This document shows, piece after piece, positions 42,942-56,558 of a stretch of 64,000 nucleotides of DNA. The notes below the pieces were generated by a model, which was given only the letters and a program-made list of their open reading frames with translations, did not search any database and had not been told where the DNA came from. Source of the stretch: Akkermansia sp. (lineage in GTDB: Bacteria > Verrucomicrobiota > Verrucomicrobiia > Verrucomicrobiales > Akkermansiaceae); the NCBI GenBank assembly GCA_017555025.1, contig JAFZHC010000066.1, forward strand, positions 1 through 64,000, in the 5' to 3' direction. Numbering within the stretch: position 1 is the stretch's first letter; each line of letters starts with the position of its first letter. Position numbers and translations under genes: made by a program.

Positions 42942-45137
42942 TTACTTCAGAATACCGCAGGCTTTCAGGTGAGCATCGGGGTCGGGTTCACGCCCCATGA
43001 AATCGCGGAAGGCATCTATAGCGTGCTTGCTGCCACCGACGGAAAGCACAGCCTTGCGGAAGGCCGCAGCCGGTGCCGGATTGAGAATCCCCTCCTCTTT
43101 AAAGCGGCGGTAGGCATCTGCAGCCAGCACATCGGCCCACTGGTATGAATAATACCCGGCGGCATACGCCCCCGTCATGCAATGCGACAAGCGGCGCATA
43201 TACGAGGGTTCATCAACATCCGACGGCATCTGCCACGGTGCCAGCAACTCAGCCGAGGCCTCATCAATATCACGTCCGGCAAAGCGTTGGGCATAGTTCA
43301 TGTGCATTTCCAAATCCAGCTTAGCTAGGCAGAATTGGCGCATCATGGACAATGCAGGCATAAAATGTCTGCCGGCATTCAACTGGGCGACCATCTCCGC
43401 CGGCATGGGCTCTCCGGTTTCATAATGCCGGGCATAAAGCGCGAGAGCCTCGGGCTCCCAAGTCCAGTTTTCATTGATGGTGCTGGGCAGCTCCATAAAA
43501 TCCCAGGCAATGTTGGAGCTCCAATGAGCAGCCAGCTCGGTATCCGTCAACATAGCGTGAAGCATGTGACCAAACTCATGGAAGAGCGTCTGCACGTCCA
43601 TGTGACTGAACAATGCCTGCTGATTACCCACAGGGCGCGTAAAATTGGCGGTAATCGAAGCCAGATGCGGAGCATGGGGAGCACCATCCTTACCGGGAGC
43701 ACCGGCTCGCAAGGGGGATACCCAGGCACCTGCCCGCTTACCGGCTCGTGGGTACAAATCGAGGTAGAACGAACCGAGGTGAGCACCGTTAGCATTGTCT
43801 GTAATAGCAAACATGCGCACCTCCGGGTGCCATACCTCCACCTTACCTTCGGGGCAGCTCTGCCCGGGCTGCAGGCAGACCACGGGCAACTCCGTCACAG
43901 AAATGTTGTACAGCCCGGAAAAAATGGAGAACATGCCTTTCAATACATTTTCACAGGCAAAGTAAGGGCGTACTGACTCCGGATCATAGGCACACTTTTT
44001 CTGAGTATACTCGTTGAGGTAGTAGCGCAGGTTCCAAGGTGCCATGGTATCGCTCTTTTCCCCGCGGCGTTCATTGGCATAGGCTATCAACTCCGCACAC
44101 TCCGCACGGAAGGCCGGAGCCAGACGCTCCATCACATTGTCAACAAAGCCCAAGGCCTTGCTGCCGCTGTTGACCATGCGGTGGTGAGTTTTGTAATCCG
44201 CGTAAGTAGCAAAACCCAACAACTGAGCCAACTCTGCACGCAGCTCCATCACGCGGCCCACAATAGCGGCGTTGTCATACTGACCGCCCTTACCAATCGT
44301 GAGCTGAGCTTCCCAGCAGAGTTTACGAGTAGCCTCCACCTCACAATCACGCAGCACGGAGCCGGCGCTACCGGCTTTCAGCGAAATACGCCAGGCCGGA
44401 GACTCCGGAGTACCATGCCCGCGAGCAGCGGCTTCGGCAGCAGCTGCGGCTAACCAATTATCGCTCATGCCGGTCAATCGGCTCTTATCCGTCACAATGA
44501 GCTCCCAGGCATTGGTAGCATCCAGCACATTCTTGCCAAACTGTATCGTCAGCTGAGAAATTTCCTGCTCAATCTTCGTCTTGCGAGCCTTTTTATCCTC
44601 CGGCAGCTCGGCCCCGTTATCGCGGAATCCATCCAGCGTTTGTTGCACCAGCATTTTCTGCTGAGTGCTGAGCTGAGCCGCCCAAGGACAATCTGCGGCA
44701 GCACACAGCACCTTCCACAAACGGGTATCAGCCATGATAGACGAATAGAATTGATTAAGCTCGGGCATGAGTGAAGACTGAGCCTCACGCACATCAGGAG
44801 CATCCAGCACAGCGGCACGAGTACGCAAATAGTCAACCACACGCTCCAGTTCCCGGGTAGCTTCACCCAGAGCAATAAAGGTGTTCTCAAATGTCATCTG
44901 TTCGGGCGTAAGTTCGCGAATGGCATCCAGACGAGCAGTAGCCAGCTGCAGAGCAACCGGAGCATCCTTCAAAGCCTGCTCTGCTGTCAGCCGAGACCAG
45001 GCCGGGTAAGGCATATCTTCAAAATACGGATGTGCTGACTCAACAGGCTGTACCACAGCCGGTGCAGATTCCGCAGCCTGCACGATAGCGCCCGGCGCAA
45101 CACAGAGCGCCGTTAATAAGAGTGTACGTAATGTCAT
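42942..45137 (-). CDS. secreted M3-family oligopeptidase (Dcp/OpdA type)
   Basis: From ATG 45137 the 731-residue protein starts with a signal peptide (LRTLLLTALCVAPGAIVQA); an upstream in-frame start at 45173 would put 12 residues before it. The zinc motif HEFGH is in TLFHEFGHMLHAML, and the family sequence YFYSYQWADVLAAD-like end (YYSYQWADVLAADAYRRF) is seen. M3 enzymes cut short peptides, and the signal peptide places this one in the periplasm, like E. coli Dcp. It is the last gene of the grpE-dnaJ-rsmE unit. A paralogue lies at 52364. Confidence 0.9.
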   Translation of the reverse strand: MTLRTLLLTALCVAPGAIVQAAESAPAVVQPVESAHPYFEDMPYPAWSRLTAEQALKDAPVALQLATARLDAIRELTPEQMTFENTFIALGEATRELERVVDYLRTRAAVLDAPDVREAQSSLMPELNQFYSSIMADTRLWKVLCAAADCPWAAQLSTQQKMLVQQTLDGFRDNGAELPEDKKARKTKIEQEISQLTIQFGKNVLDATNAWELIVTDKSRLTGMSDNWLAAAAAEAAARGHGTPESPAWRISLKAGSAGSVLRDCEVEATRKLCWEAQLTIGKGGQYDNAAIVGRVMELRAELAQLLGFATYADYKTHHRMVNSGSKALGFVDNVMERLAPAFRAECAELIAYANERRGEKSDTMAPWNLRYYLNEYTQKKCAYDPESVRPYFACENVLKGMFSIFSGLYNISVTELPVVCLQPGQSCPEGKVEVWHPEVRMFAITDNANGAHLGSFYLDLYPRAGKRAGAWVSPLRAGAPGKDGAPHAPHLASITANFTRPVGNQQALFSHMDVQTLFHEFGHMLHAMLTDTELAAHWSSNIAWDFMELPSTINENWTWEPEALALYARHYETGEPMPAEMVAQLNAGRHFMPALSMMRQFCLAKLDLEMHMNYAQRFAGRDIDEASAELLAPWQMPSDVDEPSYMRRLSHCMTGAYAAGYYSYQWADVLAADAYRRFKEEGILNPAPAAAFRKAVLSVGGSKHAIDAFRDFMGREPDPDAHLKACGILK

Positions 45138-50359: not shown

Positions 50360-50401
50360 GCCCCTGCACGCACGTGTGTGTCATGCAGGGGCGCTTTTTT
50401 T
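50360..50401 (+). terminator. strong hairpin with T run on the plus strand, upstream of lpdA
   Basis: GCCCCTGCA (50360-50368) pairs with TGCAGGGGC (50384-50392), followed on the plus strand by a run of seven T. Both neighbouring genes run on the minus strand, so as written it would stop antisense transcription. For leftward transcripts it is only a hairpin preceded by A residues. Confidence 0.65.
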
Positions 50402-50444: not shown

Positions 50445-51278
50445 TCAACCCACCTCACCATCCGAGCTCCGAACCTCATCCCGGCGGCGATGCCAACACT
50501 CGCGCACAAACTTCCACATACCCATTACGGCACACAGGCAAAGTTTCGGCAACCAACAGATGACTTTCACCGTCACACATGGGAACAAGCATACCGCACC
50601 CACCAACAAAGCAAGAACAGCCAAGCTCAGCACGGGATGGTCCCACATCCAAGTGGCGGCATTGCTCAGCTTCTCCACAAAGTCCGCCGGGCTCTCACTC
50701 GTCATCACCATGGTGACGGCAGCCCCCAGACCGACAAATTTCGCAGCCTTCAGCACTTCATCCAGCTTGGACGGCGACATTTTAGCCAGTCGCTCCGCTG
50801 CCTCTTCACCGCCTTCCCGCACCATGAGTACCATCGTCTTGCAATCATCTGCCCCAAGACCGAACTTGCGGGTACACATGGACAGGTACTGAGCGGATTC
50901 ACGGTTCATGGCACCCAGAGCGGAAGCCACCTCCGCATCCGGACAAAGTCGAAGGGTATTCTCCGCAATATTAGTATGCCTGAGCAGGGCCTCCGCAGCA
51001 TCATCACCCAACGAATGAACCAGTTGGACTCGCTCGGGATGACGAGCCAAGGTCACAACGGCATCGTCCCCATAGTTCCTGACCAATCGCGCCCAGGTCG
51101 GTGACTGTTCCGCCAATTCGCCTACAAGGTTACGTGCCGCTTTGCCGCCGCCGGACGTAACTACCCGCACCAGGCTCCGAAGCCCGGAGTCGAGCACCCC
51201 GCCCTGAGCCTCGCCGCCACACCAAATCATGACGGCCATCAACGGAACAACCAACATATAAGCAATTTTTTTCAGCAT
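50445..51278 (-). CDS. signal-bearing helical-repeat membrane protein (cassette gene B)
   Basis: From ATG 51278, which has AAAGGAG at good spacing, the protein has 277 residues. A signal peptide (IAYMLVVPLMAVMIWCGGEAQG) leads to an alpha-helical region with repeat-like units: LVRNYGDDAVVTLARHPERV is followed by LVHSLGDDAAEALLRH and others, about 21 residues apart. Two or three hydrophobic segments follow (GLGAAVTMVMT, LSLAVLALLVGAVCLFPCVTV, then LPKLCLCAVMGMW), and the tail is basic, then acidic. No family is recognised. It is 26 nt after the stop of the upstream partner, and both probably come from the promoter at 52209. Confidence 0.65.
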   Translation of the reverse strand: MLKKIAYMLVVPLMAVMIWCGGEAQGGVLDSGLRSLVRVVTSGGGKAARNLVGELAEQSPTWARLVRNYGDDAVVTLARHPERVQLVHSLGDDAAEALLRHTNIAENTLRLCPDAEVASALGAMNRESAQYLSMCTRKFGLGADDCKTMVLMVREGGEEAAERLAKMSPSKLDEVLKAAKFVGLGAAVTMVMTSESPADFVEKLSNAATWMWDHPVLSLAVLALLVGAVCLFPCVTVKVICWLPKLCLCAVMGMWKFVRECWHRRRDEVRSSDGEVG

Positions 51279-51304
51279 AATGATAATCTCCTTTCTGACT
51301 GATA

Positions 51305-52147
51305 TTACTTCCACTCCTGTGCGCGCTTCTCCAGAACGTCAAACATCGATTGCTCAAACTGAGCCCGTAAGGAGGCAGCACTCTGCGTCAGTTGTTTATT
51401 CAGTGCCGCCTCAATTTCCGGAGTCGGGTCCGTAAATATATTGACCAGAATCGCTACGACACCGCCGACAACGGTAGAGATACCGAAGGTCGCCCAACCC
51501 GAAACAGCCGAGGCCGACAGAATACCGGTCGTCACTGCCATATTGGTAGCAACCGAGGCCAAAATCTCAGCCCCCACCTCTGCTCCGATTGTGTACATTA
51601 ACTGCTTCCAAATTACCTCGTTCATCCCCTGCGGGGCGGAACCCGAGTTCATCGCAACAGCATTACCCTTCTCCGCCTCACCGATAACCGGTCGGCCCAG
51701 CTTATCAGCCATGATGTTCTCCTGCTCCATCCAGTCTTTCACGACCAGAGCAGTCGCCTGTGCCACAACCTGCGAAGTCTCCAGCTCATCGTAAAGAGCG
51801 CTCTTCACCTTTTGGCTCATCCACTCTTTCACCTCTTCCTCACTGTTCCAAATTGTCTTCCACGTCGCGTTAAACCCCGTCAAATCATCGGCCAATTCTT
51901 CCACACGAGAACCGCGAGCAAGAATGGCGCGCTCCAGTGCCGCTCCATGAGCATAGACAGACTTGCGGCAATTCATATACCCCTCCTTCAAAATAGGAGA
52001 GGAATCGACCGTAGTCTCTGCCGCGATGATTCCACCCGACGGGCCATCCGTCTTGCATACCTCGTACACACCGGCACCGATGGTGCCCAGTATGAGAGCG
52101 CTCAACATACCATAACGAAATAGGGATTTCTTCTTGTCTGTATTCAT
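51305..52147 (-). CDS. membrane protein with internal hydrophobic hairpin (cassette gene A)
   Basis: From ATG 52147 the protein has 280 residues. An N-terminal membrane helix (LSALILGTIGAGVYEVC) is followed by a long amphipathic helical region (GSRVEELADDLTGFNATWKT, EEEVKEWMSQKVKSAL), then a hydrophobic hairpin of about 50 residues (GAEILASVATNMAVTTGIL plus TFGISTVVGGVVAILVNIF), and finally an amphipathic helix (LTQSAASLRAQFEQSMFDVL). This resembles pore-forming or membrane-inserting helical proteins, but no family is recognised. The promoter sits 61 nt upstream of the start. Confidence 0.65.
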   Translation of the reverse strand: MNTDKKKSLFRYGMLSALILGTIGAGVYEVCKTDGPSGGIIAAETTVDSSPILKEGYMNCRKSVYAHGAALERAILARGSRVEELADDLTGFNATWKTIWNSEEEVKEWMSQKVKSALYDELETSQVVAQATALVVKDWMEQENIMADKLGRPVIGEAEKGNAVAMNSGSAPQGMNEVIWKQLMYTIGAEVGAEILASVATNMAVTTGILSASAVSGWATFGISTVVGGVVAILVNIFTDPTPEIEAALNKQLTQSAASLRAQFEQSMFDVLEKRAQEWK

Positions 52148-52208
52148 AGTCTTATTTTTGCTGAGCGTTTGTGTCGCTTTTGCGATTTCTTGTTGCAGCG
52201 ACGAGAGA

Positions 52209-52237
52209 TTTATATCACCGATGTAGCACTTGGTCAA
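52209..52237 (-). promoter_or_regulatory. promoter of the two-gene cassette
   Basis: On the minus strand TTGACC (52232-52237), 17 nt, TATAAA (52209-52214), within an A/T-rich region with a TTTTTT run upstream of the -35. The leader of about 55 nt contains a small hairpin (TCGC/GCGA). Confidence 0.7.
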
Positions 52238-52307
52238 GAAAAAATATAAGATATTTATCTTTTTTGCTACTTTTCAATTTTATTGCGATTTTTCTCAAAA
52301 AACGACT

Positions 52308-52338
52308 AAAAAAGCACTGCCGAACTACCGGCAGTGCT
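52308..52338 (-). terminator. terminator of the second M3 peptidase gene
   Basis: A perfect 10-bp stem (AGCACTGCCG with CGGCAGTGCT, 52313-52322 and 52329-52338) is followed on the minus strand by TTTTTT. It separates the peptidase gene from the two-gene cassette. Confidence 0.9.
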
Positions 52339-52363
52339 GAAAAGAAATCCGACGCAAGAGCGC

Positions 52364-54580
52364 TTATTTGATAAGCCCCTGAGCCTGAAGGAGAGCATCC
52401 GGGTTGGGGTCGCGCTCCATGAAATCGCGGTAGACCTCTGCAGCGGGCTTGCTATCACCCTTGCTGAGCACGGCCTTGCGGAAGGCTGCGCCGGTGGCAG
52501 GGTTCATGATACCCTCTTTCTTAAAGCGGGTGAAGGCATCCGCCGAGAGCACCTCGGCCCACTTGTAGGAGTAGTAGCCGGCAGAGTACCCACCGGTAAT
52601 GCAGTGGGTGAGATGGCGCATGAAGGAGGGTGCACTGACAGACATTGGCAGGCGCCAGGAGTCGAGCAACTGGTTAGTAACCAAGTCGAGGCTCTTGCCC
52701 TTGAACTTCTCGTCGTAGTTCATGTGCATCTCGAGATCAAGCTTGCCGTAACAAAGCTGCCCCATGTTGTCGGTACCGGGCATGAAATATCGGCTCTTCT
52801 GCAATTTCTCGATAAGCTCGGCAGGCATGGGCTCACCGGTCTCGTAATGAACGGCGTACTGAGCAATACCCTCGGGGTACCAGGTCCAATTCTCAAAGAG
52901 TTGACTAGGCAGCTCCACGAAGTCCCAGGCAACGCTGGTACCACAATGAGCCTGCAGCTCTGTATCGCCCAGCATGCAGTGCATCATGTGGCCAAACTCA
53001 TGGAAAATGGTCTCAATATCGTAGTGTGTAAAGAGGGCGGGTTTGTCCTCTGTGGGGGTGGTGAGGTTGCCTACCAGGCAGGCAAGGTGGGGGTCGTGCG
53101 GGGCACCATTCTCACCGGCGCGACCATAGCGAAGGGGCATGACCCAGGCACCGGCACGCTTGCTGGCACGCGGGAAGAGGTCCATGTAGAAGGTACCAAG
53201 GTGAGCACCGGTCTTGTTGTCTGTCACCTTAAACACCTTGACCTCGGGATGCCATACTTCCACCACACCCTCGGGGCAGGTCTCACCCGCCTCCAAACAG
53301 GCGGAGGGCAGCTCAGCAAAGCTGATATCGAACAGATGGCTGTAGATGGCAAACATTCCATTAACCACATTGTCTGCTCGGTGGTAGGGACGCAGCTCCT
53401 CGGGGTCGAAAGCGTATATCTCGCGCGACATCTTGTTGAGGTAGTAGCGACGGTCCCAAGGGTCAATAAACATAACATTGCGCCCCTCCTTGGCGGAGAT
53501 ATACTCCAACAGCTGGCGGCACTCCTCGCGGAAAGCCGGCAGCACCTTCTCTGCCATGTTGTCGATGAATGCCATGGCATTGTCGCCACCACCCACCATG
53601 CGGCGGTGCGTGGTCATGTCAGCATAGGTTTTAAAGCCCAGCAGCTCAGCCAACTCGCTGCGCAACTCCATCACGCGAGCCACAACGGGTTCGTTATCCC
53701 ACTCACCCACAGCACCGATGGTGTTCTGCCCCTCCCAGCACATCTTGCGGGTGGCCTCCACCTCACAATCTCGCAGAACTGAGCCCACGCTCGTGAAATC
53801 AAGAGTAATGAGCCAGGCGGGATTTTCTTCGCTGCCGAAGCCACGCGCCTCAGCATCCGCCTGAGCCTTGCTCATCCAATCATCGCTCATGCCGGCAAGC
53901 TCAGCCTTATCAACAATGAGAAGTTTCCAAGCATTGGTGCTATCAAGCACATTCTTACCGAACTTAAGAGTCAACTCGGAGAGCTCTCGCTCAATCTCAG
54001 CCTTGCGGGCTTTTTTATCCGCCGGCAAATCAGCGCCGCTGTCCACAAAGCTATCAACCGTCTGCTGCACAAAGCGCTGCTTAGCCGGGGAGAGCTCCTT
54101 CACCCACGGCTGAGCTGCGGCACTCTTAATAACAGCCCACAGCTTCTCATTGGCTACAATGCTGGCATCGAACGCAGTCAACTCAGGAATAAGCCCTTCC
54201 TGAGCATTTCGCAGCTCTTCATTATCCATCACAGAAGAGAGATGGTACATATAGCCCTGCACCTGCCCCAGCTCATCGCTGGCCTGATTAAGAGCAAAGA
54301 AGGTATTTTCAAAGGTCGCTTCTTCGGGGGTGATACGGCAAATGGCTTCAATGCGCTCGTAGGCTTTGGCAAGAGCAGCACGAGTATCGGCCACACCCTG
54401 CTGCGGGGTCATCTGCGACCAGGCAGGATATGGTTGATCTTGGAAAAACGGATGCGTAAGCTTTTGCTGAACAACTTCCTGTTGAATGGCTGTAACGGCC
54501 CCGGCGGTTTCCTCGGCCTGCAGCATGCTCAACCCGGTCAGGGCACATACTGCGGTAATGAGTATAGTCTTTGTCGTCAT
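52364..54580 (-). CDS. second secreted M3-family oligopeptidase
   Basis: The 738-residue protein is a full-length paralogue of the peptidase at 42942-45137. It has a signal peptide (ILITAVCALTGLSMLQAEE) and the zinc motif HEFGH in TIFHEFGHMMHCML. The C-terminal YYSYKWAEVLSADAFTRF segment is shared. It should degrade short peptides in the periplasm. Unlike its paralogue it stands alone, with its own promoter (54636-54664) and terminator (52308-52338). Confidence 0.9.
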   Translation of the reverse strand: MTTKTILITAVCALTGLSMLQAEETAGAVTAIQQEVVQQKLTHPFFQDQPYPAWSQMTPQQGVADTRAALAKAYERIEAICRITPEEATFENTFFALNQASDELGQVQGYMYHLSSVMDNEELRNAQEGLIPELTAFDASIVANEKLWAVIKSAAAQPWVKELSPAKQRFVQQTVDSFVDSGADLPADKKARKAEIERELSELTLKFGKNVLDSTNAWKLLIVDKAELAGMSDDWMSKAQADAEARGFGSEENPAWLITLDFTSVGSVLRDCEVEATRKMCWEGQNTIGAVGEWDNEPVVARVMELRSELAELLGFKTYADMTTHRRMVGGGDNAMAFIDNMAEKVLPAFREECRQLLEYISAKEGRNVMFIDPWDRRYYLNKMSREIYAFDPEELRPYHRADNVVNGMFAIYSHLFDISFAELPSACLEAGETCPEGVVEVWHPEVKVFKVTDNKTGAHLGTFYMDLFPRASKRAGAWVMPLRYGRAGENGAPHDPHLACLVGNLTTPTEDKPALFTHYDIETIFHEFGHMMHCMLGDTELQAHCGTSVAWDFVELPSQLFENWTWYPEGIAQYAVHYETGEPMPAELIEKLQKSRYFMPGTDNMGQLCYGKLDLEMHMNYDEKFKGKSLDLVTNQLLDSWRLPMSVSAPSFMRHLTHCITGGYSAGYYSYKWAEVLSADAFTRFKKEGIMNPATGAAFRKAVLSKGDSKPAAEVYRDFMERDPNPDALLQAQGLIK

Positions 54581-55955: not shown

Positions 55956-56558
55956 ATGGCTAATCTGAACAAAGTCATGCTCATCGGCAACCTCACCGCC
56001 GACCCCGAGGTTCGCCAGACCCCCCGCGGCAACTCCCTTACCGAACTTCGTCTGGCAGTTAACCGCGTATCCAGCGGCCCCAATGAGGGCGAGCGCCGCG
56101 AAGAGACCACTTTCCTTGACGTAACCTGCTGGGGTCGCACCGGCGAGGTTGCAGCTCAGTACCTGAGCAAGGGTCGCCCCGTATTCATCGAAGGTCGCCT
56201 GCAGATGGACACATGGGAAGACAAGCAGACCGGCCAGCGCCGCAGTCGCATTCGCATCATTGCCGAGAATCTTCAGCTGCTCGGCGGTCGTGATGGCGGC
56301 GGCAACTTCAACAATGGAGGTGGCTATCAGGGTGGTTCTCAGGGCGGTTACAATAACGGTGGCGGTTATGGCCACAATGGCGGTTATCAGGGCCAACAGC
56401 GTAACAACGGCTACGGCAACAATGGTGGTTACCAGGGCCAGCAGCACAGCAACGGCTACGGTAACAACGGTGGCTACCAGCAGGGCGGCTACCAACAGGC
56501 ACCGGCTCCTCAGCAGGCTCCCATGCCCGACGAAGCCGATGACGACATCCCGTTCTGA
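55956..56558 (+). CDS. ssb: single-stranded DNA-binding protein
   Basis: SSB coats single-stranded DNA in replication and repair. From ATG 55956 (MANLNKVMLIGNL) the protein has 200 residues. The OB fold covers about 1-110 (TADPEVRQTPRGNSL, FLDVTCWGRTGEVAAQYLSKG, VFIEGRLQMDTWEDKQTGQR). The linker is a Gly/Asn/Gln/Tyr-rich low-complexity region with tandem repeats, and the tail ends in DDDIPF, the conserved partner-binding peptide. An upstream in-frame ATG at 55857 precedes the promoter's -10 and is rejected. Confidence 0.98.
   Translation: MANLNKVMLIGNLTADPEVRQTPRGNSLTELRLAVNRVSSGPNEGERREETTFLDVTCWGRTGEVAAQYLSKGRPVFIEGRLQMDTWEDKQTGQRRSRIRIIAENLQLLGGRDGGGNFNNGGGYQGGSQGGYNNGGGYGHNGGYQGQQRNNGYGNNGGYQGQQHSNGYGNNGGYQQGGYQQAPAPQQAPMPDEADDDIPF
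56382..56471 (+). repeat. two 45-nt imperfect tandem repeats in the ssb linker
   Basis: Units 56382-56426 and 56427-56471 each encode Gly-Tyr-Gln-Gly-Gln-Gln-x-x-Asn-Gly-Tyr-Gly-Asn-Asn-Gly. A partial third copy follows. Differences are mostly at third codon positions. Confidence 0.85.

Follow-up and report, generated by a model that had tools for sequence, protein, structure and literature searches.

The window analysed here, a 64,000-nucleotide stretch of an Akkermansia contig, carries two genes on the minus strand between an M3-peptidase and a dihydrolipoamide dehydrogenase gene. Gene A (51305..52147) encodes 280 aa and gene B (50445..51278) encodes 277 aa, and the pair stands alone among housekeeping genes. 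Both open reading frames are present as an earlier note on this DNA had described them, and both frames are kept by homologues in two phyla. Translation of A begins at the ATG at 52147, a start backed by homologues that likewise open with MNT. The two genes are separated by a 26-nt gap (51279..51304, minus strand) with the Shine-Dalgarno sequence AGAAAGGAG ahead of the B ATG; in several relatives (L015, L044) they overlap.

The pair had been taken for an isolated cassette read from one promoter. Its upstream boundary stands, as the M3-peptidase gene ends in an intrinsic terminator with an 11-bp stem and a T tract (52313..52338, minus strand). A hairpin is also found on the other side, between B and the dihydrolipoamide dehydrogenase gene (~50360..50395, no strand assigned), with a T run on the plus-strand side that serves the opposite strand. 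By eye we found a promoter-like TTGACC-17 nt-TATAAA about 60 nt upstream of A (52205..52234, minus strand), which the promoter scanner did not report; the scanner returned one promoter-like site, the level of shuffled sequence (mean 1.4), and we only infer that A and B share a single promoter. The window contains a second M3-type peptidase gene, with the two paralogues (42945-45137 and 52364-54580) being 56% identical and many such copies occurring in the genus. An empty-site comparison at the M3-peptidase locus was of limited use, since most species do not keep the gene order there. Elsewhere in the window, a 45-nt tandem repeat (56363-56480) lies within the glycine-rich tail of the ssb gene.

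Protein A combines an N-terminal anchor, a helical bundle (residues 51-149 and 242-279) and a glycine-rich hydrophobic hairpin. Its single N-terminal hydrophobic segment lies at residues ~12-33 (52049..52114, minus strand), followed by a helical middle, and the N-terminal charges fit an N-in topology. A lipoprotein-type signal takes the place of the anchor in two relatives (L040 and L042), with the lipobox LAAGC in L040. The hairpin covers residues ~193-240 (51428..51571, minus strand) within an unbroken hydrophobic run (residues 183-245) that is free of charges between residues 195 and 234. AlphaFold models this region as a helix (193-235) with low confidence (pLDDT ~55-60), and the last helix spans residues 242-279. 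The hairpin is better conserved than any other region of A, with a score of 0.46; the helical bundle scores 0.36 and the remaining regions 0.22-0.35. At most three charges in a 40-residue stretch were counted in 21 of 23 A proteins. It is not universal, because both coupling-protein-linked, plasmid-type A proteins of one planctomycete genome (G539; L168 and L169) lack it. The earlier likening of this element to the hairpins of membrane-inserting proteins is plausible in view of its retention, and insertion itself may be supposed.

Protein B has a signal-peptide-like N-terminus, an alpha-solenoid, a C-terminal membrane segment and a basic tail. The solenoid is predicted as short consecutive helices, GDDA motifs occur at residues 70 and 91 (a period of 21), and the C-terminal hydrophobic segment spans residues 207-255 (50514..50660, minus strand). 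The signal peptide, GDDA-containing helical repeats and C-terminal membrane segments reported earlier for B were thus all found.

Neither protein matched above the cut-off in Pfam, NCBIfam, PHROGs or PADLOC, and a search of PDB sequences returned nothing for A and only designed repeats and noise for B. These four profile libraries and the PDB sequences confirm that the pair has no confident match to a known family. A and B are exported, helical membrane proteins of the envelope that fall outside curated families. Fold searches with the models of both gave generic helical matches; the best for B was VIA (Z 6.1), with no family emerging. Several candidates were discarded. The weak matches of B to VirB11 and Kup lay far under the cut-off, its Pfam matches, Bacteriocin_IIi (in 4 of 17 members) among them, were unconvincing, and ZapG-like matches of A look coil-driven. 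A Pfam scan of 17 A proteins showed no ClyA/HlyE or HBL-type family among the 25 best families at E up to 0.5. We found no relative of A or B in viral contigs, none of the window's own A in a plasmid search and none of the window's B in a phage search. A literature search on the pair, on DUF6361 and on Hsp70-dynamin-C39 clusters turned up nothing about the pair.

Across genomes, A and B adjoin each other at 26 loci, of which nine are in Akkermansia species, 15 are chromosomal in planctomycetes, one is in another verrucomicrobial family and one is on pSINAC03, a finished plasmid of Singulisphaera acidiphila. Orthologues of the two genes are therefore regularly found side by side, with varying neighbours. 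A search of 59 relative genomes found A in five, and the identical five carry B. Presence is patchy, with the pair in 5 of 37 genus-level genomes. Those Akkermansia carriers that are named originate from roe deer, sheep and goat, all ruminants, and from samples labelled Lapin, which we read as rabbit. Prompted by a Phycisphaerae contig, we surveyed 392 sampled planctomycete genomes and found A in nine, with B adjoining it in every readable one. A search of the same genomes with B alone gave all nine A genomes as best matches. The next strong B loci, read directly, also have an A-like neighbour (G714, G539 twice, a second pair in G708, G795 and G555). The A-like genes of G539 score weakly (1.2e-4 and 0.01), yet they adjoin B and cluster together in the tree. 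There are exceptions: A and B lie on different contigs in G433, G329 has a degenerate A and no B, G741 has a B-like gene and no recognised A, and A is a fragment at L045.

Maximum-likelihood trees of A and B give the same five groups. Since the major clades match, the pair appears to travel together. The pair of G072, the verrucomicrobium of another family, was found via the A search, has the reversed order B-A and groups among planctomycetes, which points to transfer between phyla. The adjacency, the congruent trees and the absence of a family match all bear out the proposal of a joint, undescribed envelope module; that the two proteins form a complex is the part we infer.

The pair evolves faster than its surroundings. 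The window and a second Akkermansia genome (G023) share the locus order A, B, lpd, GYF protein, YeiH-like, grpE, dnaJ. Between them A is 47% and B 49% identical, compared with 77-93% for the neighbours (lpd 93%, YeiH-like 88%, GrpE 87%, DnaJ 84%). The corresponding dN/dS values are 0.29 for A, 0.25 for B and 0.05-0.13 for genes of the same locus, ratios that are approximate because dS is near saturation; the pace of the pair is 2-6 times that of same-locus genes. Relative to a further genome (G244), identity is 81% for the M3 peptidase, 33% for A and 39% for B. In closer pairs dN/dS is 0.20-0.63 for A and 0.20-0.31 for B, the highest value (G009 vs G007) coming from few changes. Between L015 and L017, the adjoining dynamin and DUF697 genes show similar values (0.18 and 0.20). 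For A and B the ratio is below 1 everywhere, and the fast evolution is compatible with relaxed constraint too.

Neighbouring genes differ between carriers, and about half of the loci have no conflict-type neighbour; those named below are occurrences, for which we claim no enrichment. At one planctomycete locus (L039, 187-5304) a short contig carries a CRISPR array with 36-nt repeats and 73-nt spacing, then A, B, cas2 and cas1, with other cas genes off the contig. In this one relative the pair adjoins an array; around the pair in the window we found neither a CRISPR-cas locus nor a repeat array. The pair of the non-Akkermansia verrucomicrobium (L173, 2746-7577) follows a CARF/Csm6-HEPN-like gene, whose HEPN match is slightly under the cut-off, and two small genes. 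A DUF6361 gene lies downstream at L171, followed further on by the start of a helicase gene, L045 encodes a kinase-like protein that matches TCAD9 below the threshold, and serine-recombinase-like genes were seen by eye near L041 and L174. A DUF3108-like exported protein precedes A at four planctomycete loci (L040, L042, L043 and L167), by Pfam match in the first two and by eye in the others, and is a possible third partner of the pair. We rejected a functional link to the nearby dnaJ and grpE genes, considered in view of the Hsp70 gene of L015, because other genes intervene and the pair sits elsewhere in most carriers.

One alternative ties the pair to dynamins: A would be a dynamin-like stalk and paddle devoid of the GTPase, and the pair a periplasm-side counterpart of dynamin and DUF697 proteins in membrane repair or vesiculation. 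In an Akkermansia MAG (L015) the genes run contiguously and co-directionally in the order C39-like, dynamin, dynamin, Hsp70, A, B, dynamin, DUF697, and the order B-dynamin-DUF697 directly 3' of B is kept in two further Akkermansia loci (L017 and L049). Dynamins of this type occur in four of five carriers of the pair as compared with 7 of 37 genomes of the genus (hypergeometric P 0.0025, kinship ignored). In the window genome, another contig (C35) encodes a homologous dynamin with a DUF697-like protein, and C20 has an Hsp70-dynamin cluster. The 205-aa first gene of the MAG cluster (L015:1108-12681) is GrpE-like by eye, and similar clusters without the pair occur at G000:C20 (L114), L117, L118 and L119. 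The predicted model of A can be aligned with BDLP (Z 10.4 over 189 residues at 4.2 Å) and the MxB stalk (Z 10.6), with dynamin-family stalks overall at Z 9-10.6; against this, unrelated helical bundles attain Z ~10 and a designed bundle scores 11.1. The PADLOC LeoBC profile matched 7 of 17 A members (best 2.2e-5); in a control it matched none of four reversed sequences and two of five real ones. Profile-profile comparison (hhalign) of A with Akkermansia dynamins gave a probability of 13%, dropping to 7% with more sequences. To see whether A is a true dynamin stalk, we aligned its profile with those of three Akkermansia dynamin families and of controls; the signal was confined to 39 paddle columns. 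With 23 A sequences it shifted to a coil region, and therefore we do not claim dynamin homology. The Dynamin_N (GTPase) domain is absent from A and 16 relatives, dynamins are cytoplasmic and A is exported, and the planctomycete pairs have no recognised dynamin nearby. We regard this reading as unlikely. A touch less likely still is ordinary envelope maintenance, in which export and weak constraint would account for the fast evolution. The housekeeping genes beside the pair in the window, a dN/dS below 1 and the DUF3108-like exported protein upstream in planctomycetes agree with it, while the patchy presence, the transfer between phyla seen in G072 and the plasmid, recombinase and CRISPR neighbours speak against it.

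A role as a conjugation or plasmid accessory, aiding a type IV coupling protein or excluding incoming plasmids, draws on another set of loci. Both copies in G539 are ordered A-B-ParB-coupling protein, G741 has a B-like gene followed by coupling-protein and ParB genes, and pSINAC03 (L175, NC_019895.1:4571-11074) carries ParB-A-B-coupling protein with a MobF relaxase. The 6.8-Mb genome G539 has four coupling-protein matches, two of which adjoin its two pairs. This linkage is limited to one part of the family, in which the A proteins of G539 lack the hairpin, and the window genome has no coupling-protein gene; such a role is distinctly unlikely. The earlier suggestion of a secreted effector A with B as its immunity partner fares worst and appears very improbable. 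A hydrophobic hairpin like that of membrane-inserting proteins, fast evolution and an adjacent partner would suit it, but A keeps its anchor or lipobox and is inherited, and diverges, together with B as a whole protein; we found neither a swapped toxic C-terminus nor a delivery domain.

The pair is co-inherited across PVC bacteria and one plasmid and evolves fast. Because it is also found near dynamin, CRISPR or plasmid-transfer genes in some genomes, it is probably a membrane-active module of the accessory genome. Our preferred reading, to which we give a probability of roughly 0.4, is that A and B form an inner-membrane complex facing the periplasm in which the hairpin inserts under the control of B, as an accessory module of genome conflict or mobile elements. 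The two proteins would be obligate halves of this complex. A would be held by its N-terminal anchor, or by a lipid in some relatives, and the glycine-rich hairpin of its bundle could insert into a membrane and oligomerise there. B, a solenoid exported by its signal peptide, would be fixed by a transmembrane segment at its C-terminus, with the basic tail in the cytoplasm, and most likely binds the bundle of A and sets the timing of hairpin insertion. Complex formation, hairpin insertion, the regulatory part of B and the conflict role are all proposed. The module would be accessory and horizontally mobile, perturbing or remodelling membranes in defence or mobile-element conflict and not serving housekeeping. 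Counting against a conflict role, the pairs of the window and G023 adjoin housekeeping genes and lie in no defence island. A bolder version, in which the pair is a new PVC-centred conflict module with a B-gated hairpin-inserting protein incorporated into CRISPR, CARF-HEPN, dynamin and conjugation loci, is rather doubtful. The family is new, and we do not claim a new kind of system. Its two genes are held together across two phyla and a plasmid although they belong to no curated family. If they act in defence or plasmid biology, Akkermansia, a medically relevant gut bacterium, would possess a system working at the membrane, and the anonymous gene pair that PVC bacteria carry near cas, CARF, dynamin and coupling-protein genes would be accounted for.

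Several known systems invite comparison. The alpha-helical pore-forming toxins ClyA, HBL and AhlC share with A a helical bundle and a membrane-directed hydrophobic element. They stand low in the fold list of A, AhlC superposes poorly (Z 7.5 at 9.5 Å), and unlike these toxins A has an N-terminal anchor, a constant partner and no Pfam match. The mating-pair proteins of type IV secretion are likewise exported membrane proteins, and in G539 and pSINAC03 the pair lies beside a coupling protein as well. In contrast to them, A and B match no VirB-type family, most loci have no coupling protein and the annotation of pSINAC03 names no VirB-type genes. CRISPR and other conflict systems include accessory proteins that act on membranes; these adjoin cas or CARF genes, evolve fast and are patchily distributed. 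A and B are similarly fast-evolving, patchy and near cas or CARF genes, the latter at two loci only (L039 and L173); they differ from such accessories (for conflict systems generally, see PMC7159879) in that both are exported and neither has a fused sensor domain. Bacterial dynamin-like proteins (BDLP and LeoA/B/C; PMC2862293, PMC4159319) differ from A in that A lacks a GTPase domain, is exported and carries an anchor, and its profile has no significant similarity to theirs. They are nevertheless its best coherent structural neighbours, sharing a helical stalk-like bundle that ends in a hydrophobic paddle or hairpin, and dynamin genes adjoin the pair in three Akkermansia.
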